From a virus: a stretch of 22,923 nt of DNA. The translations under genes and the position numbers were made by a program. Below are positions 1 through 19,021 of the stretch, piece after piece (the first letter of the stretch is position 1; the number at the start of each line of letters is the position of its first letter). Below the pieces are notes generated by a model. It did no database searches. It worked only from the letters and a program-made list of their open reading frames with translations, and was not told where the DNA came from. The DNA is taken from positions 1-22,923 of the IMG/VR virus record IMGVR_UViG_3300035070_002129; one strand, 5' to 3'.

Positions 1-40
1 TGGGAAGAGCAGTGGCAAGCATTAACACCAGAGGTTAATC

Positions 41-496: not shown

Positions 497-867
497 AAAA
501 GACAATCATAGCCTTCGACGTAGACGGCACACTCCGCAAGAACAGCGAAGAGATACACCGAACTAAAGTTGTAGCCAATGAGCGTATCGTTGACCTTATG
601 AGCATACTATCTACCTTCAAGAACGTAGAAATTCACATCTGGTCAAATAGAGGTGCAGAGTATTGCAGGATGATACGACACGAGCTACAGCTTGAGGAGT
701 ATGTTAAAGAGTCGCACTGCCACGAGAAGATGTGGTTAACCCAGCAACAGGAAACGCTTGTTGATTACGAAGAGTCCGACAAGGATTACTTACGACCGGA
801 TATTGCTATAGACGACCAGCAACGGTTCGACGGTGGGATTGCTAACTTAATTGTGAGAGAGAAGTAG
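493..867 (+). CDS. HAD-superfamily phosphatase
   Basis: A 124-residue hydrolase of the haloacid dehalogenase fold. Motif I is FDVDGTL with the nucleophile and acid/base pair D9 and D11. Motif II is the IHIWSNRG strand with S51. K79 is a candidate motif III lysine, and motif IV is the DIAIDDQ segment with D107/D108 binding magnesium. It is at the small end for the family and has no visible cap domain, so it could act on nucleotides or polynucleotide ends, as phage polynucleotide-kinase 3'-phosphatases do; the substrate cannot be read from sequence. Translation starts at GTG 493, inside the terS stop (GTGA). The stop lies two bases before the GTG of the methyltransferase. The fold is confident, the role is inference. 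Confidence 0.85.
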   Translation: MKKTIIAFDVDGTLRKNSEEIHRTKVVANERIVDLMSILSTFKNVEIHIWSNRGAEYCRMIRHELQLEEYVKESHCHEKMWLTQQQETLVDYEESDKDYLRPDIAIDDQQRFDGGIANLIVREK

Positions 868-869
868 CA

Positions 870-1967
870 GTGCGTTACTTCTCTATGTTCACAGGGATTG
901 GAGGATTTGAACTTGGAATACAGCGAGCCTATGATACTCAACGCACACATATCGGCACGGAATCCGAACCGCAAGAACGCACACAAGGGAGGGAGCGGTC
1001 CACTGATAAGCAGGGAGTACTGTTACACCCTAGAGACTGGACAGCCCCACTATGTGTTGGTTACTCCGAGATTGATAGATACGCAACTAAAGTCTATGAA
1101 AGGAACTTCGATGGACACACCAACTACGGAGACGCAACAAAAATTGAACCTTCCGAAATTAACGGAGAGTTCGACCTTCTTGTCGGAGGATTCCCTTGTC
1201 AAGCTTTCAGCATTGCTGGAAAGCGTGCAGGATTTGACGACACCAGAGGCACACTCTTCTTTGATGTCGCTCGGATTCTCAAGCACAAAAGACCCCGACA
1301 TTTGGTACTCGAAAACGTCAAAGGTCTACTTAGTCATGGGGGGGGGCAGACTTTCCAAACAATACTTGGGGTTCTCTCCGACTTGGGGTATAGAGTTGAA
1401 TGGCAGGTACTTAACAGCAAAAACTTCGGAGTTCCCCAGAACCGAGAGCGAGTCTACATTATCGGACATCTTAGAGGAGAGTGTGGACGACAAGTATTAC
1501 CTATCAGAACAAGTACAAGAGCGAGTCTTAAAGAGCTTACGCAAGGTGTAGACGAAGCCAGTCGTGTATACGACATGTCGGGTATAGCACGCACCATAAA
1601 AAATGGGGGAGGCATGGGTGCAAAGACTGGTCTCTACATGACACAATTACCTGAGCAGAAAGTTAACAGGACTGTACGCACTGGCGGCTCAATGTCGGTA
1701 AACGATAAACATAACTGGGATACTCATCTTATACAAGGAAAGCTTCGGAGGCTTACACCAAAAGAGTGTGAACGGTTGCAAGGGTTCCCCGACGATTGGA
1801 CAAAGTATGGAGGTGATTCTTATCATATAGCTGACTATGATATGTCGGACACACAGCGCTACAAAATGTGTGGCAATGCGGTCACCGTAAATACTGTTCA
1901 GGCTGTAATGGAGAGGCTATACAATGGCGGATGTTTTAGTCACACCACCACCAACGACAACCGTTGA
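870..1967 (+). CDS. dcm: DNA (cytosine-5) methyltransferase
   Basis: A 365-residue enzyme that methylates cytosine at C5 in DNA, probably protecting phage DNA from host restriction. All core motifs are visible: I (FTGIGGFELG, residues 7-16, S-adenosylmethionine binding), III (YGDAT), IV with the catalytic GGFPCQ (C110), VI (ENV, 148-150), VIII (QNRERVYIIG, 190-199), IX (RRLTPKECERLQGFP) and X (GNAVTV, 335-340). The target-recognition region is about 205-290. Residues 21-60 are a hydrophilic insertion between motifs I and II where most relatives have only a few residues. Glycines 157-159 are encoded by nine consecutive G. A second frame is open for over 600 bases inside the gene. The start is GTG 870; the end overlaps terL by 44 bases. 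The symbol is generic: the target site is unknown. Confidence 0.95.
   Translation: MRYFSMFTGIGGFELGIQRAYDTQRTHIGTESEPQERTQGRERSTDKQGVLLHPRDWTAPLCVGYSEIDRYATKVYERNFDGHTNYGDATKIEPSEINGEFDLLVGGFPCQAFSIAGKRAGFDDTRGTLFFDVARILKHKRPRHLVLENVKGLLSHGGGQTFQTILGVLSDLGYRVEWQVLNSKNFGVPQNRERVYIIGHLRGECGRQVLPIRTSTRASLKELTQGVDEASRVYDMSGIARTIKNGGGMGAKTGLYMTQLPEQKVNRTVRTGGSMSVNDKHNWDTHLIQGKLRRLTPKECERLQGFPDDWTKYGGDSYHIADYDMSDTQRYKMCGNAVTVNTVQAVMERLYNGGCFSHTTTNDNR
913..1551 (+). CDS. Candidate overlapping gene inside the methyltransferase (+1 frame)
   Basis: This frame is open without a stop for over 600 bases wholly inside the methyltransferase gene. A TTG at 913 has a perfect GGAGG (900-904) eight bases upstream; the first ATG in frame is at 931. 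The product would be about 212 residues, soluble, and rich in serine and threonine. Its last third contains TLSDILEESVDDKYYLSEQ, which resembles, from memory, an L..ILE..VD.KYYLS element found near C5 methyltransferases and in phage proteins beside them. Against it, the GGAGG also encodes motif I glycines, and non-coding frames of similar length occur elsewhere in this window (for example about 187 codons antisense at 19786-20349). It may be a real overprinted gene, an alternative C-terminus reached by slippage at the G9 tract, or chance. Confidence 0.3.
   Translation: MEYSEPMILNAHISARNPNRKNAHKGGSGPLISREYCYTLETGQPHYVLVTPRLIDTQLKSMKGTSMDTPTTETQQKLNLPKLTESSTFLSEDSLVKLSALLESVQDLTTPEAHSSLMSLGFSSTKDPDIWYSKTSKVYLVMGGGRLSKQYLGFSPTWGIELNGRYLTAKTSEFPRTESESTLSDILEESVDDKYYLSEQVQERVLKSLRKV
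1338..1346 (+). repeat. Nine-G homopolymer in the methyltransferase gene
   Basis: Nine consecutive G encode Gly157-159 of the methyltransferase, just after motif VI. Loss of one G would move translation into the +1 frame, which stays open to the TAG at 1549-1551. This is a candidate slipped-strand contingency tract. The reading frame is intact with nine G, because motifs VIII to X follow in frame. Confidence 0.9.
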
Positions 1968-3441
1968 CGGCTGGAAACCAAACCCCGGACCACAAGAGTT
2001 CTCTTTGATGCAACCAGCCAGCGTGTTCGAGATACTCTACGGTGGCGCACGAGGCGGAGGCAAGACAGACGCAGGGTTGGCTTGGATGACAGAGTATATG
2101 CGTCACCCACGCTTTCGTGGCTTGGTGCTTAGACGTAACGTTGACGACTTATCCGACTGGATTGACCGTGCCGAGTTTATGTACAAACCTTACGGTGTGA
2201 AAGTATCACGTCACCCACAGGCTGTGATTCACTTCCCTGCAGGTGGCAAGATACGTGTGGGGCACATGAAAGACAAGAACGCTTATACCAAGTATCAGGG
2301 ACACGAATATCAGAAAATACTTATTGAAGAGTTGACGCAGATTCCTAAAGAGGCTCATTACCAGAACATCTTATCTAGTGCACGTTCAACCGTGGCAGAG
2401 CTGAGACCGCAGGTGTTCCTTACCACTAATCCGGGTGGCGTTGGTCACGGCTGGGTTAAGCGTCGCTTTATTAAACCAAAGGTGGGAGAGGCTAGACGAC
2501 CGAACTGGCCATTCTTATCAAATAACACCAAGCGTGACGCAATCTTTATCCCTGCCAGCGTAGACGACAATCCAGTGCTTATGGAGAAGGATCCGTATTA
2601 CGTCAATATTCTAGAGGGATACAAAGAAACAGACGAGCAACTATACCGTGCTTGGCGCTTCGGTAGTTGGGACGTATTCGTCGGACAGGCGTTCGGTGAG
2701 TTTGATTACAATACCCACACGACACAACTCCTGCCTTATCCGCTTAAAGATTGCTATAAGATAATGGCATTTGACTGGGGTTACTCTGCCAACGGTGTTA
2801 TGGTGTGGCTGGCTGTCACGCCTGAGAACCGCTGGGGAGTGCGTAGGATATACGTTTATCGTGAGTTGGTACAAAACAAGAAAAGCCCGGAAGAGTGGGG
2901 AGTCGAGCTAAACAAAATCAACAAGCAGGACGTTGAGCGTGGCTGGGGAAGCGTACAGTATATGTCCCTGCCCCACGACTGCTATAGCAAGGTGCGAAGC
3001 GAGGAGACCATAGCAAAGACATTTGAGAAGCTAACGGGACTTAGCTCTATTATGATGCCAACGCAAAGCGCTGGGGCACGTGTGAGACGAAAAGCACTCT
3101 TGCATACTATGTTTGGACTTGGCGAGGATAAAATACCACGACTGTTGATTCAGCGGCACTGCACGTACCTGATAGAAACAATCCCTGAGCTGGTATACGA
3201 CGACACTAACGTTGAAGATATAAACACCGACGGCGAGGACCACGGCTACGATGCGCTGACAGGTGGACTACTGCAGTTGTCGGTTGATACAGTATCGTCA
3301 GGTGCAGTCAGTGCCAAAGAAAACAAGCAGGATATTAACTACGTGCCAAGCATACGTTCAAGTCAAAGCGGTGTATATAAACCACCTGATTTAATGGGTG
3401 CAGTAGCAAAGAAGCAAAAAAAGCGCAAGTCACCATACTAG
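1924..3441 (+). CDS. terL: Terminase large subunit
   Basis: The 505-residue ATPase/nuclease motor that cuts and packages phage DNA through the portal. The ATPase domain has Walker A GGARGGGKT (residues 40-48, K47), Walker B KILIEEL (131-137, acidic E135/E136) and the coupling motif FLTTNPGG (165-172). The nuclease domain shows an RNase-H-like fold: MAFDWGYS (D284), SLPHD (D352) and DHGYDA (D439, D443), the expected three acidic metal-binding sites. The length is normal for the family. The ATG at 1924 lies inside the methyltransferase end with a purine-rich GGAGAGG upstream, and the two genes overlap by 44 bases. The C-terminal 60 residues are hydrophilic with a basic end (KKQKKRK). Confidence 0.96.
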   Translation: MADVLVTPPPTTTVDGWKPNPGPQEFSLMQPASVFEILYGGARGGGKTDAGLAWMTEYMRHPRFRGLVLRRNVDDLSDWIDRAEFMYKPYGVKVSRHPQAVIHFPAGGKIRVGHMKDKNAYTKYQGHEYQKILIEELTQIPKEAHYQNILSSARSTVAELRPQVFLTTNPGGVGHGWVKRRFIKPKVGEARRPNWPFLSNNTKRDAIFIPASVDDNPVLMEKDPYYVNILEGYKETDEQLYRAWRFGSWDVFVGQAFGEFDYNTHTTQLLPYPLKDCYKIMAFDWGYSANGVMVWLAVTPENRWGVRRIYVYRELVQNKKSPEEWGVELNKINKQDVERGWGSVQYMSLPHDCYSKVRSEETIAKTFEKLTGLSSIMMPTQSAGARVRRKALLHTMFGLGEDKIPRLLIQRHCTYLIETIPELVYDDTNVEDINTDGEDHGYDALTGGLLQLSVDTVSSGAVSAKENKQDINYVPSIRSSQSGVYKPPDLMGAVAKKQKKRKSPY

Positions 3442-3445
3442 AACT

Positions 3446-3456
3446 GTGATAGAATC
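3446..3456 (+). promoter_or_regulatory. Extended -10 promoter, predicted leaderless transcript
   Basis: GTGATAGAATC contains TG-A-TAGAAT, matching the extended -10 element used repeatedly in this window. The hexamer (3450-3455) ends six bases before the ATG at 3462, so transcription would start at or beside the start codon. No Shine-Dalgarno sequence lies upstream of that ATG, which fits a leaderless mRNA. Confidence 0.5.
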
Positions 3457-3461
3457 ATAAT

Positions 3462-3764
3462 ATGAACGTGCCAGCACTTATTACGAAAGAGAAGCCAGAG
3501 ATAACCGTTATATTAAGCGATGAGTACAGCGAGATAAAAAAGAAGTTCCGCTGTCCGAACTGTGGCAAAGTAGCCTTTGAGTACTACTCTCCAATCAGAG
3601 TAATTATGCCGGGACACGCAGAGCCAGCCACCAGACTAGACAGAGCAGGTGTTAAGCACTTTGCTCAAGTGCCAGTTATAGTAGAGTGTCGCAACGTAAT
3701 AATTGTGACCAAGAATGGGGTTGACTTAAACACACGCTGTAAAACTAAACTATTAGTCACTTAG
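3462..3764 (+). CDS. Small zinc-ribbon-like protein
   Basis: A 100-residue protein of unknown function. It holds CPNCGK (C31, C34) and later C76 and C93, a spacing that could give one four-cysteine zinc site, with an otherwise mixed alpha/beta composition. Small zinc-finger proteins are common between terminase and portal genes in phages, but a particular role (packaging accessory or translational regulator such as Mu Com) cannot be shown. It has no ribosome binding site and a -10-like element directly before its ATG. Its TAG stop overlaps the AGGAG that serves the portal gene. Confidence 0.8.
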   Translation: MNVPALITKEKPEITVILSDEYSEIKKKFRCPNCGKVAFEYYSPIRVIMPGHAEPATRLDRAGVKHFAQVPVIVECRNVIIVTKNGVDLNTRCKTKLLVT

Positions 3765-3773
3765 GAGTAAGCA

Positions 3774-5858
3774 ATGGACGAAGTAAACTTTCTTGGTAAT
3801 GAAGCGATTGTCGATTTAGATGTAACCGTTGACTTTCCTATAGACGACACGCAACTCGTAGCAGTATTTGACGAGCGACTCAAAGCATCAAAAGAGAACG
3901 ACGAAAAGCTACAAATCGGCAAGCGAAGCGGTGAGAACTATGATTACTGGCGTGGTAAGCAAATCAAGCTGGAAGATTTACAAGAGCATGAGACACCTTA
4001 CATGGATAACATCATCTGGCAGGACTCTCGCCACCAGATAGCAACAGCAGTCTCTAAGATGCCTGACATCCTTGTTATGCCGGGCAACACCGTCAAGGAA
4101 CAGCAAGAGAACGCTAAAATACTCGAAAAGCGTTTGAACCAGCACGTGCCTATGCTTAAGCGTATACTGCGTGACGGCTTGCGTAACCTTAGCATTGACT
4201 ATAAGGCAGCAATCAAGGTTGTCTGGGAGCCAAACGCCGACGAGGGACGTGGCGACTATAAGTTCTATTTGTGCCGATCTAACAAGTTTGGTTTCAACAA
4301 GACTGCAACCATACCGCAAGACGGCTTTACCTCTGACAACATGACCTTTATCTATGAGTATATAAACGAGCCTATTTCGCTTATCATGGCAAAGTTTCCG
4401 GGTGCTAAAGAGAAGCTAAGACAGCTCTATAACGTAGACAGCGGACAGCCGGGTTCACGTAACTCACGTGACGAGATAGATTACGTCGAGGGCTGGTTTA
4501 CCTATTACGACAAGCAGGGTAAGCTCCACGACTTCGTCGCATGGAAGCACAACAATATTATTCTCGGCAAAGACATGAACCCTTACTATGACTTTGAAGG
4601 GTACTACAAACCAAAGTTTGACGCAGAGGGCTTGATGGAGTTTGACGAACCAAACTTCCGAAACTTCTTTGACCGACCACGCAAGCCGTTTATATTCCTA
4701 AGCTATGAGAACACTGGACGCAGCGCATACGAGGACACCTCGCCTATTGAGCAGACATGGTACTTGCAACGTTCCGTGAACAAACGAGGTGCTCAGATTA
4801 CGCTTATAGCAGACCGCATGGTTCCAAAGCTGGCGTTCAACAAAGCTATGGGTACACGTGAAAACGTGGCACAAGTTACCAACGACGTAAATGAACACAT
4901 TTTTATTGACAGCAACGAAGATATACGCACGATGGTTACTTCGTTTAGTTCAGCACCACCGTCACCTATGCTGTATCAAGACCAGCAAGCCAACCGACAG
5001 CAGATTGACAGCAAGTTTGCAGCCAACGCTGGGGCACGTGGCGAGACTGTATCCAACGAGTCTGGTATATCAAAGCAGATTACTCGTGAAGGTAACTTGG
5101 TTACTTCCGACGATATAGCTGAGATTGTCGTCGAGCGTGCCGTGTTTGAAATGGCAAGCTGGGCTATTCAGATGATGAAGCTCAAGTACGATAAAGACCA
5201 CTATGTTCGTGACATGGGTAAGGACGGCGAGCTAGTCAACGAAGTTATAAACCAAGATAAGATTGACGACGGTATAGCTGTTCAAGTAAAAGCTGAGACC
5301 ACTGGTAAATCAGAACGCCGAGAAATAGCACTTGGCTTGGCTAAGATTAAGGCTATTGATCCGCTTACACTTATGGAGGACTTGGACGTTACCAATCCAA
5401 AGCAACGAACCAAGCGTTTGATTGCGTACCTAACTGGCGACCAAGACGGTTACCAGCGTTACTTGCAAGAGGCAGGACTTATGGACGACGAGAAGTTAGC
5501 CGGAGCACCTGCAGAGGCACCAGCTGGCGCACAACCTGAAGGCACACCACCACCTGTGAGTGGCATGGACGGTCAACAGGCTTTGCTAGATATTCAACAG
5601 ATACAATCAGGGCAGATGCCTGAGATAAACGGCACACCGTCTCCTGAATACGCACAGGCTCTCGTTGCTTTCTATAACAGCGGAGAGTTTGAGGCAATGC
5701 CACCTGAACAGCAACAAATGTTTGTTCAACATATCAAAGCAATTAAAGCGGCAATCGGTGGCGAGCAACCAGCTCCTGCGCCAGCTCCTGAAGCGGTGCA
5801 ACAGCCAGTGCAACCAATACCAGTGCCGGAACAACCACAAGGAGTACCAGTACAATGA
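3774..5858 (+). CDS. Portal protein
   Basis: A 694-residue protein forming the dodecameric DNA channel at the capsid vertex; TerL docks on it during packaging and the adaptor afterwards. The evidence is position after TerL and before the scaffold, length, and sequence style: an N-terminal helical region with ENYDYWRGKQ and TPYMDNIIWQ (about residues 45-85), a central stretch with RPRKPFIFLSYENTGRSAYEDTSPIEQ (broken here only by memory of the family), then a long helical stem with DEIAEIVVERAVFE-like sequence. The last 130 residues are rich in proline, alanine and glutamine and probably disordered. The start ATG 3774 has an AGGAG six bases upstream. The stop overlaps the next ATG (ATGA). It is of the large, podovirus-type class. 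Confidence 0.88.
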   Translation: MDEVNFLGNEAIVDLDVTVDFPIDDTQLVAVFDERLKASKENDEKLQIGKRSGENYDYWRGKQIKLEDLQEHETPYMDNIIWQDSRHQIATAVSKMPDILVMPGNTVKEQQENAKILEKRLNQHVPMLKRILRDGLRNLSIDYKAAIKVVWEPNADEGRGDYKFYLCRSNKFGFNKTATIPQDGFTSDNMTFIYEYINEPISLIMAKFPGAKEKLRQLYNVDSGQPGSRNSRDEIDYVEGWFTYYDKQGKLHDFVAWKHNNIILGKDMNPYYDFEGYYKPKFDAEGLMEFDEPNFRNFFDRPRKPFIFLSYENTGRSAYEDTSPIEQTWYLQRSVNKRGAQITLIADRMVPKLAFNKAMGTRENVAQVTNDVNEHIFIDSNEDIRTMVTSFSSAPPSPMLYQDQQANRQQIDSKFAANAGARGETVSNESGISKQITREGNLVTSDDIAEIVVERAVFEMASWAIQMMKLKYDKDHYVRDMGKDGELVNEVINQDKIDDGIAVQVKAETTGKSERREIALGLAKIKAIDPLTLMEDLDVTNPKQRTKRLIAYLTGDQDGYQRYLQEAGLMDDEKLAGAPAEAPAGAQPEGTPPPVSGMDGQQALLDIQQIQSGQMPEINGTPSPEYAQALVAFYNSGEFEAMPPEQQQMFVQHIKAIKAAIGGEQPAPAPAPEAVQQPVQPIPVPEQPQGVPVQ

Positions 5859-6184
5859 GAGACGTACCAGTAGATGAAGAGCGTGACTATCCTATGCACC
5901 TCGATATAACCGAAAAGAAGTTGAAGCAGATTAAAGACTGGAAGGTCGGCAAATGCTACAAGGTAATTATAGAAATTGAAATGACTGGAATCCGTAAAGG
6001 CTATGATGGCGAGGGACCAATACGAGGCGATTTTATCGTTAAGAAGATAGAGTCTGCAGGTGAGGTCAAAGGTTACGAGAAAGAAACCAAAGCCAGCGAA
6101 CCAACCCCAACCAATCGTGGAGTCCGTGTGGGTAGTGTCGCACAGCGTGCGCTTGATGAAGACGACGACGATAATGACGATTAG
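5855..6184 (+). CDS. Small acidic head-region protein, unknown function
   Basis: A 109-residue protein without a recognised family. Residues 1-75 look like a compact basic/hydrophobic beta-rich domain (WKVGKCYKVIIEIEM, then GDFIVKKIES). The end is strongly acidic (EDDDDNDD), a tail type often seen in proteins that bind DNA-packaging or capsid partners. It overlaps the portal stop by ATGA and has AGGAG upstream, so it is probably translationally coupled to the portal. Its stop codon directly abuts the promoter of the scaffold gene. A virion or assembly role is inferred from context only. Confidence 0.75.
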   Translation: MRDVPVDEERDYPMHLDITEKKLKQIKDWKVGKCYKVIIEIEMTGIRKGYDGEGPIRGDFIVKKIESAGEVKGYEKETKASEPTPTNRGVRVGSVAQRALDEDDDDNDD

Positions 6185-6210
6185 TGTTATAATTTAATCA
6201 TAATTAAAAA
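6185..6210 (+). promoter_or_regulatory. Extended -10 late promoter before the scaffold gene
   Basis: TG-T-TATAAT (6185-6193) is followed by TTtaATcAtaATTAAAAA, starting one base after the preceding stop codon. It belongs to the recurring promoter element of this window. No clear -35 box is visible. Predicted start is near 6200, giving a leader of about 22 bases that contains the GGAG at 6211-6214. Confidence 0.6.
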
Positions 6211-6222
6211 GGAGCATTAGAA

Positions 6223-7035
6223 ATGCCAGATCCAATTGTGCCACCAGCACCAGAACCAGAGCAGAACCCTGCACCAGACGTTAGCCTAGACATAACGCCT
6301 GACGAATCAATCAATATAGTAGAACCAGTTGCAGACCCAACACCTGCTCCTGCGCCAGCTCCAGCACCTGCCCAAGACGAAGCACCAGCTTGGTTTTCTT
6401 CGTTTAAAGCTGACTTGGACAAGCGCTTTGAAGGTGTAGAAGAGAAACTAAACTCTAACGTAACACCTGAACCTGCGCCAGCGCCGGAACCTGATCCAGC
6501 ACCTGATACACGTGAAGCTCCGAAAACTATGGAAGAACTAGACCAGTATGTTAAGAATATTGCTAAGAGCACGGTTGAAGAGACTGAACAGCAAAAGCAG
6601 GAACGTGAAGCAGCCGAACAAAAAGCAGCTGAGGAGCAACAGACCAAGATTGACGAATACCTCGACCAGCAGGTTGATGCTTTGATTAAAGACGGCGACC
6701 TTCCGGCACGTGAGGGCAATGAAAAGAACCCTTATCACGCTTCGCTCTATAGCTATGCAGCATTCCTGCAGACCGACAACCTAGTGCGTGTTGGTAAAGT
6801 ACTCAAGGAATATCACGACCAAGGCAAGGTATTCGACCTCAAAGCCTCTGGCGAGACTGGCAAGCCAGTGTTCCGTCAGATTGGTAGAGGACAGGCAGGT
6901 GGTTCAGCACCAGTTGGCACTAGCTCAGTTGCTACAGAGCAAGGCAAGTCAATCGACTACAAGACTATCCACGGCGCACGTGATTTAGACGAGCTTATTG
7001 CACGAGCTGATTCGCTATTACCAGATCAAGTATAG
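6223..7035 (+). CDS. Capsid scaffolding protein (probable)
   Basis: A 270-residue protein expected to guide capsid assembly and then leave the shell. It lies directly before the major capsid gene, has a proline/alanine/glutamate-rich N-terminal 110 residues with PAPAPAPAP runs, then a long charged coiled coil (about residues 105-150, EETEQQKQEREAAEQKAAEE), and a basic/glycine C-terminal part ending in a short helix (DLDELIARADSLL), the usual place for coat binding. The ATG at 6223 follows GGAG at 6211-6214. There is no protease motif. The antisense open frame over the proline-rich part is a codon-composition artefact. Confidence 0.75.
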   Translation: MPDPIVPPAPEPEQNPAPDVSLDITPDESINIVEPVADPTPAPAPAPAPAQDEAPAWFSSFKADLDKRFEGVEEKLNSNVTPEPAPAPEPDPAPDTREAPKTMEELDQYVKNIAKSTVEETEQQKQEREAAEQKAAEEQQTKIDEYLDQQVDALIKDGDLPAREGNEKNPYHASLYSYAAFLQTDNLVRVGKVLKEYHDQGKVFDLKASGETGKPVFRQIGRGQAGGSAPVGTSSVATEQGKSIDYKTIHGARDLDELIARADSLLPDQV

Positions 7036-7226
7036 TTAGTTGGTGCGACCTCCAGTAGCTCTAAACAAGCGTGGTGAGTTAATACATGTTAAATGGCAGT
7101 AGATTCTATTGCAGCAGCCAATGCGCCCTGATATTATTCAAATGGCGACGGTGTATTACCCTTTTTGCTTATGAGGGTTGGAGTACAAGCCAGCAAACAA
7201 GAGTCGCCAGCTACCCTGAAAAAGAC
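7036..7226. other. Intergenic stretch upstream of the small-RNA promoter
   Basis: No convincing gene lies here. It contains a possible RNA fold: TGGCGAC (7143-7149) can pair with GTCGCCA (7203-7209), enclosing an ACCCT/AGGGT hairpin (7158-7178). An ATG at 7093 opens a short frame (MAVDSIAAANAP, then TGA) that continues after the stop to 7230, perhaps a decayed small gene. Neither is secure. Confidence 0.4.
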
Positions 7227-7255
7227 TTGACATTTAATACAATATAAGCTATACT
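7227..7255 (+). promoter_or_regulatory. Strong sigma-70-type promoter
   Basis: TTGACA (7227-7232), a 17-base spacer, then TATACT (7250-7255). The -35 box matches the consensus fully, the -10 box in five of six bases, and the spacing is ideal. The predicted start near 7262 lies about 88 bases before an intrinsic terminator, with no gene between. Confidence 0.85.
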
Positions 7256-7261
7256 TATATA

Positions 7262-7349
7262 GACTGATAAACAAAAACAAACAGAGCGTACCAGCCTAAT
7301 TAGCTGAGAGCGCAATACATTTCAGCCCTCCTCCGAGGGCTGTTTTTTC
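7262..7349 (+). ncRNA. Candidate small non-coding RNA (or attenuated leader), about 88 nt
   Basis: The stretch between the consensus promoter at 7227 and the terminator ending near 7349 has no ATG or GTG start. It would give an RNA with an A-rich unpaired 5' part, a stem-loop (CAGC 7292-7295 with GCTG 7303-7306, extended by GCG/CGC 7286-7288/7311-7313), and a terminator hairpin with a U tail. That is the architecture of a bacterial sRNA. It could equally be a leader terminated unless antitermination lets transcription run into the capsid genes. The 5' end is a prediction. Confidence 0.55.
7323..7348 (+). terminator. Rho-independent terminator
   Basis: CAGCCCTC (7323-7330), a CTCC loop, and GAGGGCTG (7335-7342) form a perfect 8-bp stem followed by TTTTTT (7343-7348). 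It ends the transcript from the promoter at 7227 and also insulates the capsid unit from upstream readthrough. Confidence 0.92.
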
Positions 7350-7368
7350 TATATACAAATATCAATAT

Positions 7369-7398
7369 TTGACATACGAGTATGTTAAGACTTACAAT
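7369..7398 (+). promoter_or_regulatory. Sigma-70-type promoter of the major capsid gene
   Basis: TTGACA (7369-7374), an 18-base spacer, and TACAAT (7393-7398). The predicted start is near 7405, giving a leader of about 74 bases before the capsid ATG. With the terminator at 9351-9379 it defines a capsid plus decoration transcription unit. Confidence 0.75.
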
Positions 7399-7413
7399 AC
7401 CAATATCAGGAAT

Positions 7414-7469
7414 GCTTATAAGCAGTCAGCGCACATCAGCGTTAGACTGTTTTATTATTTAAAAAGGAG
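7414..7469 (+). promoter_or_regulatory. Structured 5' leader and ribosome binding site of the capsid gene
   Basis: The leader begins with the perfect palindrome GCTTATAAGC (7414-7423). Overlapping its last base is a hairpin (7423-7449): CAGTC pairs with GACTG and AGCGC with GCGTT, with one bulged A. A T-rich stretch follows, then AAGGAG (7464-7469) nine bases before the ATG. The hairpin may stabilise the abundant capsid mRNA or act as a weak attenuator. Confidence 0.5.
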
Positions 7470-7478
7470 TACAAAGAG

Positions 7479-8567
7479 ATGACTTTTGGAACTAAAGTTA
7501 CAGCTTTGACGCAGAACTTACTTCTGCCAAAGGTTACTGACAACGTATTGAACGGTCACGTTTTACCACTACGTTTAATCGGTAATTCAAAAAGAGGTGC
7601 TGGTACTAGCATCGATAAAGCCATAAAGTACCGTGTGTCTGGACAAGCAACATCCTTCTCAGGACTAGATAGCTTTACAGCACAAGAACTTGACACTAAA
7701 ATCACCTTGTCTTATGACATGCGTGGCGTTCGTATCCCTATTGCATTAGCAGGTACAAGCGTTGTTGCAAACCGTGTTTCTGAAACTCAGGTTACTGACC
7801 TAGTTAAGAACTCAGTTGAAGAGAGCGAGCAAGAACTCTTGGATGTTACAGGAACCATGCTTTACGGTACTGGTACTGGTAACAGCAACAAAGATATTAT
7901 CGGTGTCGGTGGTATCGTAGACGACGGAACAGATGTTGATACAATCGGTGGACAGAGCCGAACAACTTATCCTGTGCTTGACTCATACCGTGTTGCTGCT
8001 TCAGGCAACTCAATGACACTGCCAAAACTTGCAACTATGTTTAGTGCGGTATCTTCAGGAACTGGAAACACCAGCCCGACCCTAATTACCTCTAACGAGA
8101 CAATTTGGGACTTGTATGAAACTCTACTTACTGCGAGCGTTCGTGAGAACTACTCAATGATGGGTTACTACAGCGTCGGTGTTCGTGGTGGCGCAAGCCG
8201 TCCCGGTGAAGGTCTAAAGGGAACACAAGGTTTTGTATCGCTTACTTATAAGGGTATTCCTTGGGTTCGAGACGAAAAAGCAACTGCTGGAAACGTCTTC
8301 ATGTTGAACGAGAACTGGTTGCAGTACTACGGTTGGTCAGCTGACGGTGTCTTCGGATACAAGAGCATCAGCCTTGGGAACACAACAACTGACGGTGGTG
8401 TTTATGACGAGCCACCTCTCAGCCAATTCACTGGTTTCAGCTGGTCTGGCTTCCGTGCCCCAACTGGTCAGTTCGCTGGTATCGCAGACGTTATCCATTT
8501 GGGTAACCTTACGAGCTGGCAACCACGTCGTCAGGGTCGATTAGAAAGTATAACAAGCGCAGCCTAA
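7479..8567 (+). CDS. Major capsid protein
   Basis: A 362-residue coat protein, probably of the HK97 fold. It follows the scaffold gene, has its own strong promoter and ribosome binding site (AAGGAG), and is followed by a decoration-type protein. Residues 50-110 (YRVSGQATSFSGLDSFTAQELDTK region, then SYDMRGVRIPIAL) resemble the extended loop and P-domain start of scaffold-dependent coat proteins. Then come a helix (VTDLVKNSVEESEQELLDVTG), a glycine-rich loop, and an ITSNETIWDLYETLL segment typical of the A domain. The C-terminal WQPRRQGRLE is basic. I cannot assign a named coat subfamily. There is no N-terminal protease or delta domain, consistent with a separate scaffold. Confidence 0.88.
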   Translation: MTFGTKVTALTQNLLLPKVTDNVLNGHVLPLRLIGNSKRGAGTSIDKAIKYRVSGQATSFSGLDSFTAQELDTKITLSYDMRGVRIPIALAGTSVVANRVSETQVTDLVKNSVEESEQELLDVTGTMLYGTGTGNSNKDIIGVGGIVDDGTDVDTIGGQSRTTYPVLDSYRVAASGNSMTLPKLATMFSAVSSGTGNTSPTLITSNETIWDLYETLLTASVRENYSMMGYYSVGVRGGASRPGEGLKGTQGFVSLTYKGIPWVRDEKATAGNVFMLNENWLQYYGWSADGVFGYKSISLGNTTTDGGVYDEPPLSQFTGFSWSGFRAPTGQFAGIADVIHLGNLTSWQPRRQGRLESITSAA

Positions 8568-8580
8568 AGGAGGATGTAAT

Positions 8581-9327
8581 ATGAAACTTCAAGGATCAGC
8601 AGACGTTGTAGCTTTTAATCCCTACTCAACAGGGAGCGTACCTGAACACGACTTAGGACAAGAGATTGCTCTTACTGACGGACGTGTCTTTAGATACGCA
8701 AAAGCTGGCGGCTCAAACATTAGTGCAGGTAAATTGCAACTCGCTCCAGCACCTAAGACAAACCACCACAACGTGGCTTGGGCTTCAGGTGGAGCAATCA
8801 ATACTAACAAAGTAACTGTAACGCTTGGTGCAACCGCAGCAGTAGCTGACGAGTACGCAGAGGGTCTATTAGTAGTCAATGACGCAACTGGTGAAGGTAC
8901 AAGCTACCAAATCAGTGGTCACCCGGCTGCTGGCTCTGGTGCAACTCTTGAGGTAACTGTGTTCGGTTCAATCCACACAGCTCTTGTTACTGGCTCAGAA
9001 ATGACACTAGTACACAACCGCTACCGTGGCGTTGTCGAAGGCACAAGCCAGACTCAAATCCCTGCAGGTGTTCCTCTTGTGAACATCGCTGCTAACAACT
9101 ACGGTTGGTTGCAGGTTCGTGGAGTCGCTCCAGTTCTAGCTGACACTGCCATCGCTGTTGGATCTGCTGTTGCAGCAGGTACAAGCACAGCTGGTGCAGT
9201 CGAACTAGAGGACTGGGCAGTTAACGCAACAGACGCTACTCGTCTTCAGGTTGAGTTCCATGTTGGATACGCAATCGTTGCAGGTGTTGACACAGAATAT
9301 CGTCCAATATTCTTAGAAATAGCTTAA
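8581..9327 (+). CDS. Probable head decoration/stabilisation protein
   Basis: A 248-residue, mostly beta-rich protein, poor in charged clusters and cysteine-free. It begins with EHDLGQEIALTDGRVFRYAK-type sequence (about residues 22-41), which I associate with capsid-surface proteins encoded just after the coat gene in environmental phages. Repeated alanine/threonine/glycine/valine strands fit a jelly-roll or tandem beta domains. The ATG at 8581 follows AAGGAGG (8568-8574), the strongest ribosome binding site in the window. Thirteen bases separate it from the capsid stop, and a terminator follows, so the two are co-transcribed and probably made in similar amounts. The decoration role is inferred from position and composition. 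Confidence 0.68.
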   Translation: MKLQGSADVVAFNPYSTGSVPEHDLGQEIALTDGRVFRYAKAGGSNISAGKLQLAPAPKTNHHNVAWASGGAINTNKVTVTLGATAAVADEYAEGLLVVNDATGEGTSYQISGHPAAGSGATLEVTVFGSIHTALVTGSEMTLVHNRYRGVVEGTSQTQIPAGVPLVNIAANNYGWLQVRGVAPVLADTAIAVGSAVAAGTSTAGAVELEDWAVNATDATRLQVEFHVGYAIVAGVDTEYRPIFLEIA

Positions 9328-9350
9328 CCCTCAGCTACACCTCACGGTGG

Positions 9351-9379
9351 ACCGTCCCTATCGGGGCGGTTTTTCTTTT
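9351..9379 (+). terminator. Rho-independent terminator after the capsid unit
   Basis: ACCGTCCC (9351-9358) pairs with GGGGCGGT (9363-9370), seven Watson-Crick pairs and one G-T wobble around a four-base loop, followed by a T-rich run to 9379. The next promoter begins two bases later. Confidence 0.92.
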
Positions 9380-9380
9380 G

Positions 9381-9404
9381 TGATATAATTCAAATACAAT
9401 TAAA
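9381..9404 (+). promoter_or_regulatory. Extended -10 promoter for the 9420 gene block
   Basis: TG-A-TATAAT (9381-9389) followed by TcaaatacAATTAAA. It is a perfect extended -10 with no recognisable -35, placed directly behind the terminator so that the downstream block is expressed independently of the capsid unit. Confidence 0.65.
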
Positions 9405-9419
9405 TGGGAGTCTACTAAA

Positions 9420-9695
9420 ATGGGAAAGTTCAAATGTGAACCTTGCAAAGATACTGGTCTAGAGCAGGACGTTGCACGTTCAATCGCTAAGGAGTGCGCC
9501 AACTGTGGCGGTACACCTGAGAACGCTAAAAAGGCTGGTTCAAAAGAAACAAAGCCAGCTGAAACGGAGCCAACGCCTCCTGCGGAGACTGAAGTTACTG
9601 AACCTGAAGCCGAAGTACTCGATCAGGACACACAAGTTACTGAAGAGCCAACGCCAGCTACCGAACCAAAAACTCCCAAGACCAACAATAAATAG
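9420..9695 (+). CDS. Small protein with two CxxC pairs and acidic disordered tail
   Basis: A 91-residue protein of unknown function. The first 35 residues carry CEPC (C6, C9) and CANC (C26, C29), a likely zinc ribbon. The remaining 55 residues are a low-complexity tail of proline, threonine and glutamate, probably unfolded. The ATG at 9420 follows GGGAG (9406-9410). It is the first gene after the terminator and promoter pair. Short zinc-ribbon proteins with such tails are seen in phage head regions, but no role can be named. Confidence 0.75.
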   Translation: MGKFKCEPCKDTGLEQDVARSIAKECANCGGTPENAKKAGSKETKPAETEPTPPAETEVTEPEAEVLDQDTQVTEEPTPATEPKTPKTNNK

Positions 9696-9725
9696 TAACT
9701 AACGGTAAGTAATAAAGGATTTGAA

Positions 9726-10424
9726 ATGCCTCAACAACACCCACACGATATAATAATGGTCACAAACATTTGGACAGACGCTCCAAAAGACCTTGTTATT
9801 CGTAGTATCACACAGCAAACAATACAGAACAGAGAATCAAAGGACGCTTCAGGTATGGATATACCTGAGCTTGAATTTAAACAGGTCGAGCACGCTTTTC
9901 GTCCTGCAGAGGCTTTTGAGATTAAGTGGAACAGTAGAGTGTATCGATTGTCACCCGGACAGACCCGTGCCTTGCCACGCTACATTGCAGTCCACTTCGC
10001 TAAGAAGATTGCAGACCAGATGCTTGGCGCACAAGACCCAAGCGGTAAACTTGGCTATATAAACTCAGCCACCAAGCGACCTGAAGTTATAAATAAAATA
10101 CTTGGAGAGGTTGTTACCTATTCAGGTGGCGACGACGAGTATGATCCAAACGAAATGGCTCAACAGAAAGCCGACAGAATTAACGAAGGTATCGACAACG
10201 GAGACATAGACCCAGTAATGGGACACTTGGCACCTGAACCAGTACAGCCTGACGTGCCAAATACGGAAGTCGCACAATCTGAAACCGAACCAGCGCCAGA
10301 GGATGCGTTCAGTAAAAGGAACAAATCCGACCTATTGAAAGAAGCGCAAGACCTAAATCTTGAAGTGACTGGTCGAGAAACTAAAGACGAGCTTATTGCG
10401 CTAATTAAGAAGAACTTTGCGTAA
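9726..10424 (+). CDS. Head-region protein with C-terminal HeH/SAP-like domain
   Basis: A 232-residue protein. The N-terminal part (about residues 50-100: AFRPAEAFEIKWNSRVYRL, then a PGQTRALPRYIAVHFAKKI helix) is a compact domain I recognise only as recurring in phage head gene clusters, without known function. An acidic proline-rich linker (about 145-195) joins it to a C-terminal 38-residue helix-extended-helix of the HeH/SAP type (SKRNKSDLLKEAQDLNLEV, then TKDELIALIKK), which usually binds nucleic acid or protein. The ATG at 9726 follows AAAGGA. A DNA-touching structural role inside the head is a plausible inference. Confidence 0.72.
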   Translation: MPQQHPHDIIMVTNIWTDAPKDLVIRSITQQTIQNRESKDASGMDIPELEFKQVEHAFRPAEAFEIKWNSRVYRLSPGQTRALPRYIAVHFAKKIADQMLGAQDPSGKLGYINSATKRPEVINKILGEVVTYSGGDDEYDPNEMAQQKADRINEGIDNGDIDPVMGHLAPEPVQPDVPNTEVAQSETEPAPEDAFSKRNKSDLLKEAQDLNLEVTGRETKDELIALIKKNFA

Positions 10425-10439
10425 AAGCATTGTTTGACT

Positions 10440-10454
10440 TATAATTGAATTAAA
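10440..10454 (+). promoter_or_regulatory. -10 promoter element before the 10498 gene
   Basis: TATAAT (10440-10445) followed by TGAATTAAAG, matching the downstream half of the recurring element. It lacks the TG extension; TTGACT directly abuts it and is too close to serve as a -35. The leader would be about 46 bases. Confidence 0.5.
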
Positions 10455-10497
10455 GAATGGCTTGTAAGCTGTCAGTAACTAATAAAGGGGATTATTG

Positions 10498-11067
10498 ATG
10501 GCTACATTTATATGGCAACTACAGGGGACTAGTCCAACCACCATAGACGCAACTGATATACTTCAATTTGCTGGTCCGAGTGGTTTCGATGATCCCATTA
10601 CGGTTGGCGCTTACAACGACACGACTCACGTAGAGTCTAGCGTTGGTGCAAACGATTCAAGTGGTAACACACCACGTAACAACAAGTTTGTTTCACAAGC
10701 TGGTGGTACTGGTGGAGATTCACAAGCAGATTGGGGTGGTGGTACTGAGGACTTAGACCAAATTACGACAGCAGAAGCGGCACTTAAGATAAACTTCTCG
10801 GACGCAAGCTCAGTGGCTACCACTGGAGCTATTTTCTATGCTTACGACGGTTCAACAACTACCGCAGTGCCAACAGGAGTTGATTTTAGAGCGGCAGAAG
10901 TTGGTGACGCCAACTTTACTGAAGCTGAGGGGAGTGCAGCAGCAGTTACCATTACCGACGACACGGCTGCAACGTCACATGACTATTACTTGGTTGTATC
11001 TGCAAGTCCTACGAGCGTGGGCGAGAAAACAGCCTTTGCATTAAGAATAGAATTAACCTACACATAG
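10498..11067 (+). CDS. Probable minor structural protein, beta-rich
   Basis: A 189-residue protein, acidic, glycine/serine/threonine/alanine-rich, without cysteine or membrane segments. It has a likely beta-sandwich composition and ends in a hydrophobic strand (EKTAFALRIELTYT). The central stretch GAYNDTTHVESS and the N-terminal FIWQLQGT hint at a virion surface protein. I chose the ATG at 10498 because AAAGGGG (10484-10490) is seven bases upstream; a TTG at 10495 would add one residue. It sits between head and fibre genes, so a capsid, neck or decoration protein is possible. Confidence 0.65.
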   Translation: MATFIWQLQGTSPTTIDATDILQFAGPSGFDDPITVGAYNDTTHVESSVGANDSSGNTPRNNKFVSQAGGTGGDSQADWGGGTEDLDQITTAEAALKINFSDASSVATTGAIFYAYDGSTTTAVPTGVDFRAAEVGDANFTEAEGSAAAVTITDDTAATSHDYYLVVSASPTSVGEKTAFALRIELTYT

Positions 11068-11077
11068 GAGTGAACCG

Positions 11078-11359
11078 ATGAAGATTGAAACAGGACGTTA
11101 TACCGCTGGTGAAGTTATAAAGACCGCTGGTTTAAACGTAAAAGCAATTGGTAGTACACGAGTCCGCATTGGCGGTATTCGTGGCATTAACACTCCTGAG
11201 CACGAGGTGTTCTTGAGCGTTGGCGAGTGCGAAGTTGTAGTTGCTAACGATACGGTTATTATAGAAGTAACCGAGGTTGATGAACCAGTTGTATCAGACG
11301 GTGCCAAAGCCGTTCACGAAGCAAACCGACCTGAGCAGGAAACCGAAGAGCAGGAATAG
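11078..11359 (+). CDS. Small protein of unknown function
   Basis: A 93-residue protein. Residues 1-65 form alternating hydrophobic strands (VRIGGIRGI, EVFLSVGECEVVVANDTVIIEV) that look like a small beta-barrel or beta-sandwich. The last 25 residues are acidic and probably disordered. The ATG at 11078 has TAGGAG upstream that overlaps the stop of the previous gene, so the two are likely coupled. No family is recognised; a head-tail joining role is suggested by position only. Confidence 0.65.
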   Translation: MKIETGRYTAGEVIKTAGLNVKAIGSTRVRIGGIRGINTPEHEVFLSVGECEVVVANDTVIIEVTEVDEPVVSDGAKAVHEANRPEQETEEQE

Positions 11360-11366
11360 AAAACTA

Positions 11367-11822
11367 ATGCGAGGCACAGTAGTGACTCAAGAAAGAGAGA
11401 AGGCTATTATGGACTTCAAACCACCAACAGATTACGCAGTAAGGCTCAAGATGTCCCTTTCAAATGGCGAGACCATTTACGAGGGACGTGAGCCTTTTGT
11501 ATTTCTTCCCGGCTTAAAGTCGCCACTGGCACGCATGCTTGAGTACGCTGACGACTATGAAATACGATCGCTTTCACTAATTACCAAAGAAGGTGTGGAG
11601 TTCCATCTACCGTCGTCAGGTAATAATCCCAAGTTCCGTGCCTTTGACGTAGAGGATAAACCTCTCGACTACACAGCGTTTAGAAAAATCGGTGGAGACA
11701 TAAAGGGCAAGAATGGCTTTGAGACGTTTAGCGTTATACAGGCAATTTATAAAGATAAGAAAATAGAGATGTGGGTTTCGGAGAAGAAGCCTCATCAAGG
11801 ATACGTGGTGATTGGGTCATGA
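11367..11822 (+). CDS. Small protein of unknown function before the fibre gene
   Basis: About 151 residues from the ATG at 11367 (AGGA at 11352-11355). An in-frame ATG at 11409 with a GAGAAGG close upstream is an equally good start and gives 137 residues beginning MDFKPPTDYAVRLKMSLSNG. The body looks like a single alpha/beta domain: strands around ETIYEGREPFVFLPG, a helix at SPLARMLEYADDYE, then EIRSLSLITKEGVEFHL and a C-terminal KIEMWVSEKKPHQGYVVIG. The stop overlaps the next ATG (ATGA), so it is coupled to the fibre gene. The longer frame from 11277 is rejected because it overlaps the previous gene by 83 bases. No family recognised. Confidence 0.65.
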   Translation: MRGTVVTQEREKAIMDFKPPTDYAVRLKMSLSNGETIYEGREPFVFLPGLKSPLARMLEYADDYEIRSLSLITKEGVEFHLPSSGNNPKFRAFDVEDKPLDYTAFRKIGGDIKGKNGFETFSVIQAIYKDKKIEMWVSEKKPHQGYVVIGS

Positions 11823-13090
11823 ACAATTACACAAATCTATCTACAAGCTTAGTTGCAACCGCTCCTTCACCTGCAACTTCAGGTACTTCCTTAGTTGTAA
11901 CCGCTGGGCATGGTGCCAGATTTCCTGCTGTACCTTTCTATGCTACGGCGTGTCCAGAAGGCCAGTTGCCAACCTTCGACAACGCTGAGATAGTTCAGGT
12001 TACTGCAATATCCACTGATACACTTACGATAGTTCGTGCTCAAAAAGGAACCTCAGCAAAGTCTATCGCTATTGGTTGGAGAATATCAGCTTCAATATAT
12101 GCTGAAGATATAGATAACCTAAGGTCTACTAACCTATTGATAAACGGTAACTTCGATGTCTGGCAACGCAACACATCGGTAACACCTAATGACGACGTAT
12201 ATATTGGTGCCGATAGGTGGAATAACGTGCAGGAAACTGATGCAGACTGGACCTTTGCTAGAGACACGGATACGCCAGACGGTTCAAGGTATTCTTTAAA
12301 AATGACTTGTGTAACAGCTAACGCTGGTGTTGGAATAGTAACTTTTCTTGAGAATGCAGATACTATGCCACTAGACGATCAGTATGTGTCTTTGTCTTTT
12401 TATGCAAAGACCAACTCGACCGAGATAGCCAAACTCAGGGCTGGCATAATTAGTTGGGGGTCGACTGCCGACGTGCTTACATCAGACGTAGTTGGTACTT
12501 GGCACGGGTCCGCAGGAACAAACCCAACTCTTGCAACCAACTGGACTTTTGAAAATACGCCTTCCGACCTAGCACTTACTTCTAGCTGGCAGAGATTTAG
12601 TATAGAAAACGTTTTGTTAGATACGGCGACAATTAATAATTTAGGAGTATTTATTTGGGTGGACGACGTAAATGCTGCAACTAATGACGACGTTTATATT
12701 TCTCAGGTTCATCTTAATTTGGGACCAAAAGCAACTATGTACGTTCCAAGACCTTATGCCTTGGAACTAAATATGTGCCAAAGATACTATCAAATTCACT
12801 TAGACCCGCACATGAACGGCGTTACAGCAGGCAATAACTCGAGTATTAACCGGCTTGGAATGGTTTTGCCAACCACTATGAGGACTACTCCAACTGTTGG
12901 GTTCGGTCCCATTCCTTTATATGACGGCAGCACAGTCACCACTCTCTCTAGTGTTAGCGTCAACTATCATCAGCCGGGGTTTGTTGAGATAGACGGAACC
13001 GCCGCAGGTAACTTTGGGGCGGCTTCCAGACCAATAACTGGATACAATGGTTCATCAGGAACTGGCTTTTCAGCGGATGCGGAGCTGTAA
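11819..13090 (+). CDS. Fibre-like / receptor-binding protein with jelly-roll domain
   Basis: A 423-residue protein. The first 95 residues (NLSTSLVATAPSPATSGTS, then AEIVQVTAISTDTLTIVRAQ and a GTSA turn) match a short beta domain seen at the base of phage fibres and baseplate proteins. From about residue 105, LLINGNFDVWQR begins a galactose-binding-like jelly roll (ADRWNNV, SLKMTC, YVSLSFYAKT, WQRFSIENVLLDT, VYISQVHLNLG), a fold used to bind surface carbohydrate. The C-terminal 110 residues start CQRYYQIH, common after that jelly roll in phage fibres. The start ATG 11819 overlaps the upstream stop (ATGA). It may be a head or tail fibre; its place before the adaptor gene leaves both open. Confidence 0.75.
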   Translation: MNNYTNLSTSLVATAPSPATSGTSLVVTAGHGARFPAVPFYATACPEGQLPTFDNAEIVQVTAISTDTLTIVRAQKGTSAKSIAIGWRISASIYAEDIDNLRSTNLLINGNFDVWQRNTSVTPNDDVYIGADRWNNVQETDADWTFARDTDTPDGSRYSLKMTCVTANAGVGIVTFLENADTMPLDDQYVSLSFYAKTNSTEIAKLRAGIISWGSTADVLTSDVVGTWHGSAGTNPTLATNWTFENTPSDLALTSSWQRFSIENVLLDTATINNLGVFIWVDDVNAATNDDVYISQVHLNLGPKATMYVPRPYALELNMCQRYYQIHLDPHMNGVTAGNNSSINRLGMVLPTTMRTTPTVGFGPIPLYDGSTVTTLSSVSVNYHQPGFVEIDGTAAGNFGAASRPITGYNGSSGTGFSADAEL

Positions 13091-13305
13091 TGGAGATACA
13101 AGACGTAGAACTACTAGTTCCAAGCAAAGAAAAACAGGCAATGGGTGCCCAAGTTAGTTTTATTGTTAAAATAAAAGGCGATACGGAGCATATTGCCGTC
13201 TGTGTGCCGAACAACCCAGAGAACCGACATTACTACGAGATAAAAGATTGGTACGAACGACAGACAATAAAGCCGTTTGATTTTAGCTTTGTAGAAAGGG
13301 AGTAG
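13090..13305 (+). CDS. Small protein after the fibre gene
   Basis: A 71-residue protein starting in the stop of the fibre gene (TAATG). It has a predicted beta-rich core (AQVSFIVKIKGDTEHIAVCVP) and an acidic/aromatic C-terminus (YYEIKDWYERQTIKPFDFSF). The position directly after a fibre gene is typical for fibre chaperones, and the length would suit one, but nothing in the sequence proves it. A ribosome binding site for the following repeat-protein gene lies at its stop. Confidence 0.6.
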   Translation: MEIQDVELLVPSKEKQAMGAQVSFIVKIKGDTEHIAVCVPNNPENRHYYEIKDWYERQTIKPFDFSFVERE

Positions 13306-13308
13306 GAA

Positions 13309-14151
13309 ATGCTGGGCGGTTTCTACCTAGGGGAAGTATACCCCGGACAATCAACTCGTGATCTTGAGGGTCTATTTGTAACCGACGAGCGTGATGCCAG
13401 AGTTACTGGAGAAGCAACCGCCAACGCCGAGAGAGATGCGGTTTTGCGTGGCGAGGCATCAGCCAACGCAGAACGTGATGCCGTTCTTACTGGTACAGCT
13501 GATATAGGTAATGAACGGGACGCAAAGGTAACCGGAGAAGCAACCGCCAACGCAGAACGGGACGCAAAGACCTCCGGTAGTATTGACGTAACTAGTGAGC
13601 GTGACGCCACGCTTGAGGGTACTGCAGACACGCAAGACTTAAGGAGTGCTAGAATTGTTGGTTTCCTTGCAGTTCAAGACTTTAGAGGTGCCACAATATA
13701 TGGTGAAGCTACAGCAACCGCTGAGAGGGACGCTACTCTTATTGGTACTGCGGACGCTACTAACACAAGGTTTGCAAAGACTGTTGGTGGGCTAGCGGTT
13801 GATGATAGCAGGTCAGCAACGATTGAGGGTACTGGCACTGGTATAAATAGCTCTAGAGGTGCCAAGACTCACGGTACTGACAATATCTTTGATGAGCGTG
13901 ATGCTAAAATTGTTGGTGGAATAGATGTGTCCGATGCAAGACCTGCCAAGGTAGTTGGAGTGCCGGGCGACTTGTTTGAGGACGACTCACGTAGAGGCAA
14001 GGCACAGTGGGAGCATTCAGACAACGGTGGACAGGTAGAGTGGGAGGCACAAGCCCAAGGTGGTCAAACTCAGTGGGATAATACTCCAAACGCTGGCAAA
14101 GCAATCTGGGAGAAGAGCGACAATAATGCAACGCCAAGAAACTGGTCGTGA
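13309..14151 (+). CDS. Repeat protein: fourteen ~14-residue units plus four W-E units
   Basis: A 280-residue protein built almost wholly of repeats. Residues 27-226 hold fourteen units of 14 residues (two slightly longer) with the pattern (E)RDAxxxGxAxxxx: invariant arginine at position 2, alanine at 4, and glycine at 8. Residues 230-273 hold four 11-residue units of the type GKAQWEHSDNG, with conserved glycine and tryptophan. The regular spacing suggests a beta-solenoid or fibrous shaft with a different tip. The N-terminal 26 residues (MLGGFYLGEVYPGQ) may anchor it. There is no signal peptide or membrane segment. The ATG at 13309 follows a GGGAG/AGGA. It lies between a fibre and the adaptor, so a fibre or head-surface protein is inferred. 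Its stop overlaps the next promoter. Confidence 0.8.
   Translation: MLGGFYLGEVYPGQSTRDLEGLFVTDERDARVTGEATANAERDAVLRGEASANAERDAVLTGTADIGNERDAKVTGEATANAERDAKTSGSIDVTSERDATLEGTADTQDLRSARIVGFLAVQDFRGATIYGEATATAERDATLIGTADATNTRFAKTVGGLAVDDSRSATIEGTGTGINSSRGAKTHGTDNIFDERDAKIVGGIDVSDARPAKVVGVPGDLFEDDSRRGKAQWEHSDNGGQVEWEAQAQGGQTQWDNTPNAGKAIWEKSDNNATPRNWS
13387..13986 (+). repeat. 42-bp coding tandem repeat array
   Basis: The fourteen 14-residue units correspond to a 42-bp period. Some copies are nearly identical: GGAGAAGCAACCGCCAACGC occurs at 13408 and again at 13534, exactly three periods apart. Later units are more diverged. This suggests expansion by recombination between units. Confidence 0.85.
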
Positions 14152-14167
14152 TATAATTCTATTAAAA
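14149..14167 (+). promoter_or_regulatory. Extended -10 promoter before the tail adaptor gene
   Basis: TG-A-TATAAT (14149-14157) followed by TCTATTAAAA; the TGA stop of the repeat-protein gene is part of the element. Predicted start is near 14164, with a leader of about 38 bases and GGAG at 14191-14194. Confidence 0.65.
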
Positions 14168-14201
14168 GGGCTATAAGCGTCTTAACAAACGGAGACTTAC
14201 A

Positions 14202-17572: not shown

Positions 17573-17573
17573 C

Positions 17574-18014: not shown

Positions 18015-18032
18015 TGTATAATTCAATTAAAA
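18015..18032 (+). promoter_or_regulatory. -10 promoter element before the ejection-protein genes
   Basis: TGTATAAT (18015-18022) followed by TCAATTAAAA (to 18032), directly after the TAG stop. TG lies immediately next to the hexamer rather than one base away. The downstream leader of about 50 bases holds a short CAAC/GTTG hairpin and TTGGAG before the ATG. Confidence 0.6.
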
Positions 18033-18078
18033 GAAGTCCAAGAGACTCGCAACACTGAATTGTTGATTGGAGTAAACT

Positions 18079-19020: not shown

Positions 19021-19021
19021 C

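Follow-up and report, generated by a model that had tools for sequence, protein, structure and literature searches.

In antiterminator RNAs of the ANTAR type, two stem-loops carry hexanucleotide loops with a conserved A at the first position and a conserved G at the fourth (A1 and G4). The put RNAs of phage HK022 are larger stem-loops that act in cis and without a factor to suppress pausing and termination, and no terminator overlaps them. Stem-loops of the ompA type stabilise highly expressed mRNAs from a position at the 5' end. To our knowledge, gene control in the phages of Patescibacteria (CPR) has hardly been explored. In the targets of Q and AlpA, a promoter is followed by a terminator and then by the controlled gene (PMC7969949).

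Here we analysed a viral DNA stretch of 22,923 nucleotides (IMG/VR record IMGVR_UViG_3300035070_002129), referred to below as the window, in which 443 bases without a convincing gene separate the gene at 6223-7035 from the major capsid protein gene. The two best promoter matches of the scanned stretch (positions 1-20000) are promoters 1 and 2 of this gap (Table 1). Promoter 1 belongs to the upstream unit, unit 1, the terminator of which consists of a hairpin at 7323-7342 (a perfect 8-bp stem with six G-C pairs and a tetraloop) followed by TTTTTT at 7343-7348, and is one of the two strongest in the scanned stretch; from the predicted start (~7262) up to the T-run there is no ATG, GTG or TTG. 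A preliminary description of the window had reported just this, a sigma-70 promoter followed by a perfect terminator with no start codon between them. Dinucleotide shuffling of 7036-7478, repeated 5000 times, gave an 11/12 promoter in 0.9% of cases and two such promoters in 0.02%, and neither such a terminator nor the promoter-terminator pair of unit 1 was reproduced in any of the 5000. Because shuffled gaps almost never yield such promoters or such a terminator, the observation is real. Further, the predicted unit-1 RNA (89 nt as folded; -25.2 kcal/mol, z = -4.1), with a bulged stem-loop at 7286-7313, folds as had been described, with an A-rich 5' end, an internal stem-loop and a terminator hairpin.

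Table 1. Features of the capsid gap and of related late-gene leaders in the window
Feature	Position	Strand	Details
Promoter 1, TTGACA-17-TATACT	7227..7255	+	11/12 match
Predicted unit-1 RNA, ~87 nt	7262..7348	+	A-rich 5' end, stem-loop, terminator, T6
Promoter 2, TTGACA-18-TACAAT	7369..7398	+	11/12 match; homologous place in relatives
P1 mini-hairpin, TGCT-TATA-AGCA	7413..7424	+	near predicted transcript start; 3' arm overlaps terminator 5' arm
Leader terminator-like hairpin, CAGTC-AGCGC-ACATCA-GCGTT-a-GACTG then TTTT	7423..7453	+	
Ribosome-binding site of capsid gene, AAGGAG	7464..7469	+	
Major capsid protein gene	7479..8567	+	362 aa; phrog_9953 major head protein, E 5e-37
Terminator closing capsid unit (capsid gene and gene 8581-9327)	9349..9376	+	fused to next promoter
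Extended -10 promoter and leader of gene 14202	14152..14201	+	P1-like GCT-ATA-AGC (14170-14178)
Leader of coiled-coil virion gene 18079	18017..18078	+	P1-like GTC-CAAGA-GAC (18036-18046)

Searches with the gap itself gave little. The whole window had no Rfam match above the gathering score, the gap yielded chance-level matches at E values up to 5, and comparison of the gap DNA with annotated phages returned short chance matches, several of them to a tRNA-Pro. An ORF of 53 aa at 7086-7247 overlaps promoter 1 and gave nothing significant in tblastn against the fetched loci. In relatives L043/L008, L062 and L046, HNH-like or other small ORFs (translated by eye) lie between the scaffold and capsid genes, just 5' of the promoter unit, and the scaffold-capsid gap appears to be a site of insertion.

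The preliminary description had also let a second promoter simply drive the capsid gene. Judged from its conservation at the homologous place in relatives, promoter 2 is the conserved capsid promoter, but not a plain one: it has its own hairpin and U-run at 7423-7453. The arms of this unit-2 hairpin are CAGTCAGCGC/GCGTTaGACTG; it begins within about 25 nt of the promoter at 7369, lies directly 5' of the capsid ribosome-binding site, folds with z = -3.2 and corresponds to the hairpin of close relatives. The G-C-rich hairpin with a directly adjoining U-run that marks an intrinsic terminator was found in units 1 and 2 and in most relatives.

To compare leaders, we gathered relatives with the capsid protein from IMG/VR, GenBank phages and two MAG contigs, giving 75 distinct upstream regions, nearly all metagenomic, with capsid identities of roughly 29-69%; no relative closer than 69% was found. 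A layout of near-consensus promoter, short leader, hairpin, U-run and capsid start recurred in relatives with as little as about 33% capsid identity; a strict joint test of this layout picked out 52 of the 75 leaders as against 18 of 750 shuffles. The counterpart of this layout in the window is promoter 2 with its hairpin, not unit 1; in the relatives such a promoter-hairpin unit stands directly 5' of the capsid start, as a leader. The distance from the -10 element to the start of the hairpin is 9-21 nt in 44 of the 52 leaders, and the hairpin is therefore part of the promoter's own transcript; in L154-L160 it stands a few nucleotides from the predicted start. When hairpins were chosen blind to T content, the 8 nt after the hairpin contained at least 5 T in 48 of 58 cases; for other windows in the leaders the figure was 7%. 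Between phages, the loops and most of the stems differ in sequence, and the position 5' of the capsid start is kept. Among the leaders failing the strict test, several show the layout by eye (L047, L061, L062, L066, L078, L141 and L153 among them) and miss the test solely on the thresholds for spacer length, hairpin or promoter. The hairpin is present without a full U-run in L075 and L128, P1-like repeats occur without a terminator in L109, L110 and L113, and the unit is absent from some relatives (L006, L084 and L086).

Unit 1 found no such comparative support. No counterpart was detected in any relative, the closest having 69% capsid identity; the exact unit-1 core had 0 matches in 2.9 million viral contigs; none of the leader models, including the covariance model R3 described below, matched it; and two stacked units were seen in no relative. 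A loose promoter...CAGCCCTC pattern was found in 36 contigs, by pattern match alone. Most likely, unit 1 is an extra promoter-terminator specific to this lineage, similar in kind to unit 2 and stacked upstream of it. Its terminator would also end transcripts arriving from the terminase-portal-scaffold operon.

The conserved leaders hold a further element, a mini-hairpin (P1) of 3-5 bp with a variable loop of 3-7 nt. In a second group of relatives, with capsids about 40-47% identical, the leader starts AGAG-xyz-N3-7-z'y'x'-C..., and the second arm of P1 doubles as the base of the 5' arm of the terminator. A model of these second-group leaders gave no consensus pairs, and P1 was therefore examined by a swap test. 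P1 pairs in 20 of 21 second-group leaders, compared with 12.4 +/- 1.5 when the downstream halves were swapped between phages, and 0 of 2000 trials reached 20 pairings. The P1 triplets covary (GGU/ACC in 13, GUC/GAC in 3, GAC/GUC in 3 and GGC/GCC in 1), and P1 overlaps the terminator arm in 19 of 20 leaders as against 7.0 +/- 2.1 in shuffled ones. In the window's own group, in which the element reads AGAAYGCU-NNN-AGC-AGUC, the overlap was found in 14 of 21 leaders (shuffled 6.4 +/- 2.0, maximum 13), and support for it is weaker here than in the second group; formal column covariation in the terminator stem was weak to modest. The swap and shuffle tests count related phages as separate, and the significance of these figures is somewhat overstated. 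Reading P1 as the dyad of a DNA operator was thought unlikely, as the spacing varies by several nucleotides; this variable loop length favours an RNA hairpin. Since P1 covaries in the second group and shares its 3' arm with the foot of the terminator 5' arm, the two structures are mutually exclusive, in that both cannot be complete at once; the window shows the same arrangement. Two exclusive hairpins, one of them a terminator, placed 5' of the regulated gene are one mark of an attenuator, and this arrangement was found, less strongly in the window's group. The word attenuator, which the preliminary description had applied to unit 1, fits promoter 2 and the deeply conserved hairpin at 7423-7453 instead.

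In scans of longer phage records, the capsid gene and few other sites were found to have the unit; a coiled-coil virion gene homologous to 18079-19020 of the window is a second site that recurs. A hairpin and U-run leader precedes this gene in G001, G011, G015 and G018, and in W01 the hairpin of the second leader is kept without any U-run. The covariance model R3, trained on capsid leaders only, with the window and the second-locus copies left out, nevertheless found second-locus copies in G018 (E 0.0014), G011 (E 0.0096) and G001 (E 0.016), as well as another leader in G001 (E 0.0087). Its best match in the window was 7393-7459 (E 0.58, not significant alone). Homologues of gene 14202 in G004 and G025 have hairpin leaders; the leader of gene 14202 in the window has a weak hairpin without a U-run, and P1-like repeats with no terminator beside them occur in the window's leaders of genes 10495, 14202 and 18079. 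As far as these predicted structures go, a P1-type leader is common to several late transcripts, with an adjacent terminator added at some of them, nearly always at the capsid gene.

The host is probably an ultra-small member of the Patescibacteria, to judge from the TM7 phage MG269973 (33% capsid identity) and from L086, a contig in a Woesebacteria MAG (43%); both of these host-pointing phages are without the unit. A first scan of genome contigs returned none, and a second returned the Woesebacteria contig and one other MAG contig. Many late genes have an extended -10 promoter (GTGRTATAAT) directly before them, and some are leaderless in appearance. After the capsid-unit terminator this promoter reads TGTGATATAAT, with TATAAT at 9384, and at 9349-9389 the terminator T-run passes straight into it (TTTTTCTTTTGTGATATAAT), a compact fusion. 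In G025-G028 (L168-L179), G002 and G008, SD-like sequences precede 9-26% of genes and several TANAAT boxes lie 4-8 nt before an ATG; the scarcity of the former and the position of the latter suggest that leaderless mRNAs may be frequent in these phages. The missing SD before some capsid starts was dropped as a special trait because those phages have few SDs overall. A GroEL/Cpn60-type chaperonin is encoded by G001 and G011 (A6 and A7), the latter also with Cpn10, and likewise by MG269973. G001 further encodes, upstream of its terminase, a 103-aa protein with sigma-70 region 4 (L021:302-610), a possible late regulator that was not seen in the scanned G011 proteins. In the window, a C5 cytosine-specific DNA methylase gene (870-1967) directly precedes the terminase gene, and the protein encoded at 13309-14151 is built from numerous short GEATANAERDA-type repeats.

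We next set the capsid leader beside the described systems. As in BglG/SacY/LicT RAT and ANTAR leaders (PMC3369936, PMC8934654), a small hairpin overlaps the 5' arm of a terminator. Unlike in these, P1 has 3-5 bp and a variable loop of 3-7 nt and would gate a phage capsid gene; no RAT sequence was recognised, and in place of paired ANTAR hexaloops there is one small hairpin, without a constant A1 or G4. Like HK022 put RNA (PMC9378689), the leader is a structured nascent RNA near a phage transcript start, its effect on termination being our proposal; unlike put, P1 is small, is overlapped by a terminator and is assumed to need a factor. It resembles the ompA type in having a hairpin at the mRNA 5' end, but differs in the U-run that nearly always follows this hairpin and in the overlapping, competing hairpin before it. 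With Lambda pR'-tR' under Q and with the Pseudomonas aeruginosa AlpA targets (PMC7969949), it shares an intrinsic terminator placed after the promoter and before late or lysis genes, and its presence at two or more loci in one genome.

That last likeness, the promoter-terminator-gene layout of known Q and AlpA targets recurring at several late genes, could mean processive antitermination, in which a phage protein would load at a site in the promoter DNA and enable the polymerase to pass the terminator, with P1 secondary. However, the conserved element lies in the transcribed leader RNA and not in the -35/-10 DNA, the spacer of which, in both groups of relatives, lacks a conserved motif and holds mostly below 0.5 bit of information; as a further difference, the terminator is very near the start; and no Q or AlpA homologue or other antitermination-protein family stood among the listed matches of the scanned G001 and G011 proteins (for PHROGs, the best 25 of 58). 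We regard this reading as barely plausible. Another possibility is that unit 1, unit 2 or both make an abundant trans-acting RNA of 45-90 nt; a strong promoter and a strong terminator without a start codon speak for it, and the preliminary description had proposed a small RNA for unit 1. The searches of relatives, viral contigs and Rfam reported above gave no support to such an RNA from unit 1, and the conserved unit varies in its loops and most stems and keeps its place before the capsid start, as a cis leader would; a dedicated small RNA is distinctly improbable.

The hairpin might also serve chiefly as an insulator or valve that stops polymerases from the terminase-portal-scaffold operon, leaving capsid output to depend on its own promoter. 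It is usually the sole strong terminator between that operon and the capsid gene, the capsid unit also ends in a terminator, at its far end, and the unit-1 terminator of the window would suit the role well. Yet the terminator comes after the capsid promoter with almost constant spacing, and in that place transcripts from this promoter would be halted too, unless polymerases near the promoter escape; P1 is also left unexplained, so we think this quite unlikely. Finally, the hairpin could stabilise the capsid mRNA or shape ribosome access without any termination, the U-run being incidental or serving as a U-rich region where ribosomes stand by. This reading, which we consider unlikely, draws on the hairpins at the extreme 5' end of the transcript in L154-L160, on those without a full U-run (L075 and L128) or without any (the second leader of W01), and on the demands of an abundant capsid mRNA, the unit of which has its own 3' terminator; it leaves unexplained the direct U-run after 48 of 58 hairpins and the overlap of P1 with the terminator arm.

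The reading that we favour, and on which we remain evenly balanced, is an attenuator-type leader in which a strong capsid promoter would be gated by the adjacent intrinsic terminator. Polymerases from promoter 2 would mostly stop by default after about 45-50 nt, and read-through into the capsid gene would rise when P1 is stabilised or when the polymerase is modified late in infection. Because P1, at 3-5 bp, is too weak against the terminator alone, we assume that a factor binds or that the polymerase is modified. Through regulated read-through, the timing or the amount of capsid synthesis would be set jointly with that of the other late genes bearing the same type of leader.

Overall, a promoter and a terminator without an ORF in a phage genome need not mean a small-RNA gene. 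Conservation of the leader at the capsid gene and its recurrence ahead of other virion genes point to a control step common to them. It is possible, if doubtful, that it represents a new class of late-gene control in Patescibacteria phages, in which late transcripts would share a leader RNA with P1 overlapping a promoter-proximal terminator, and a putative phage or host factor would open the capsid gene and other virion genes together.
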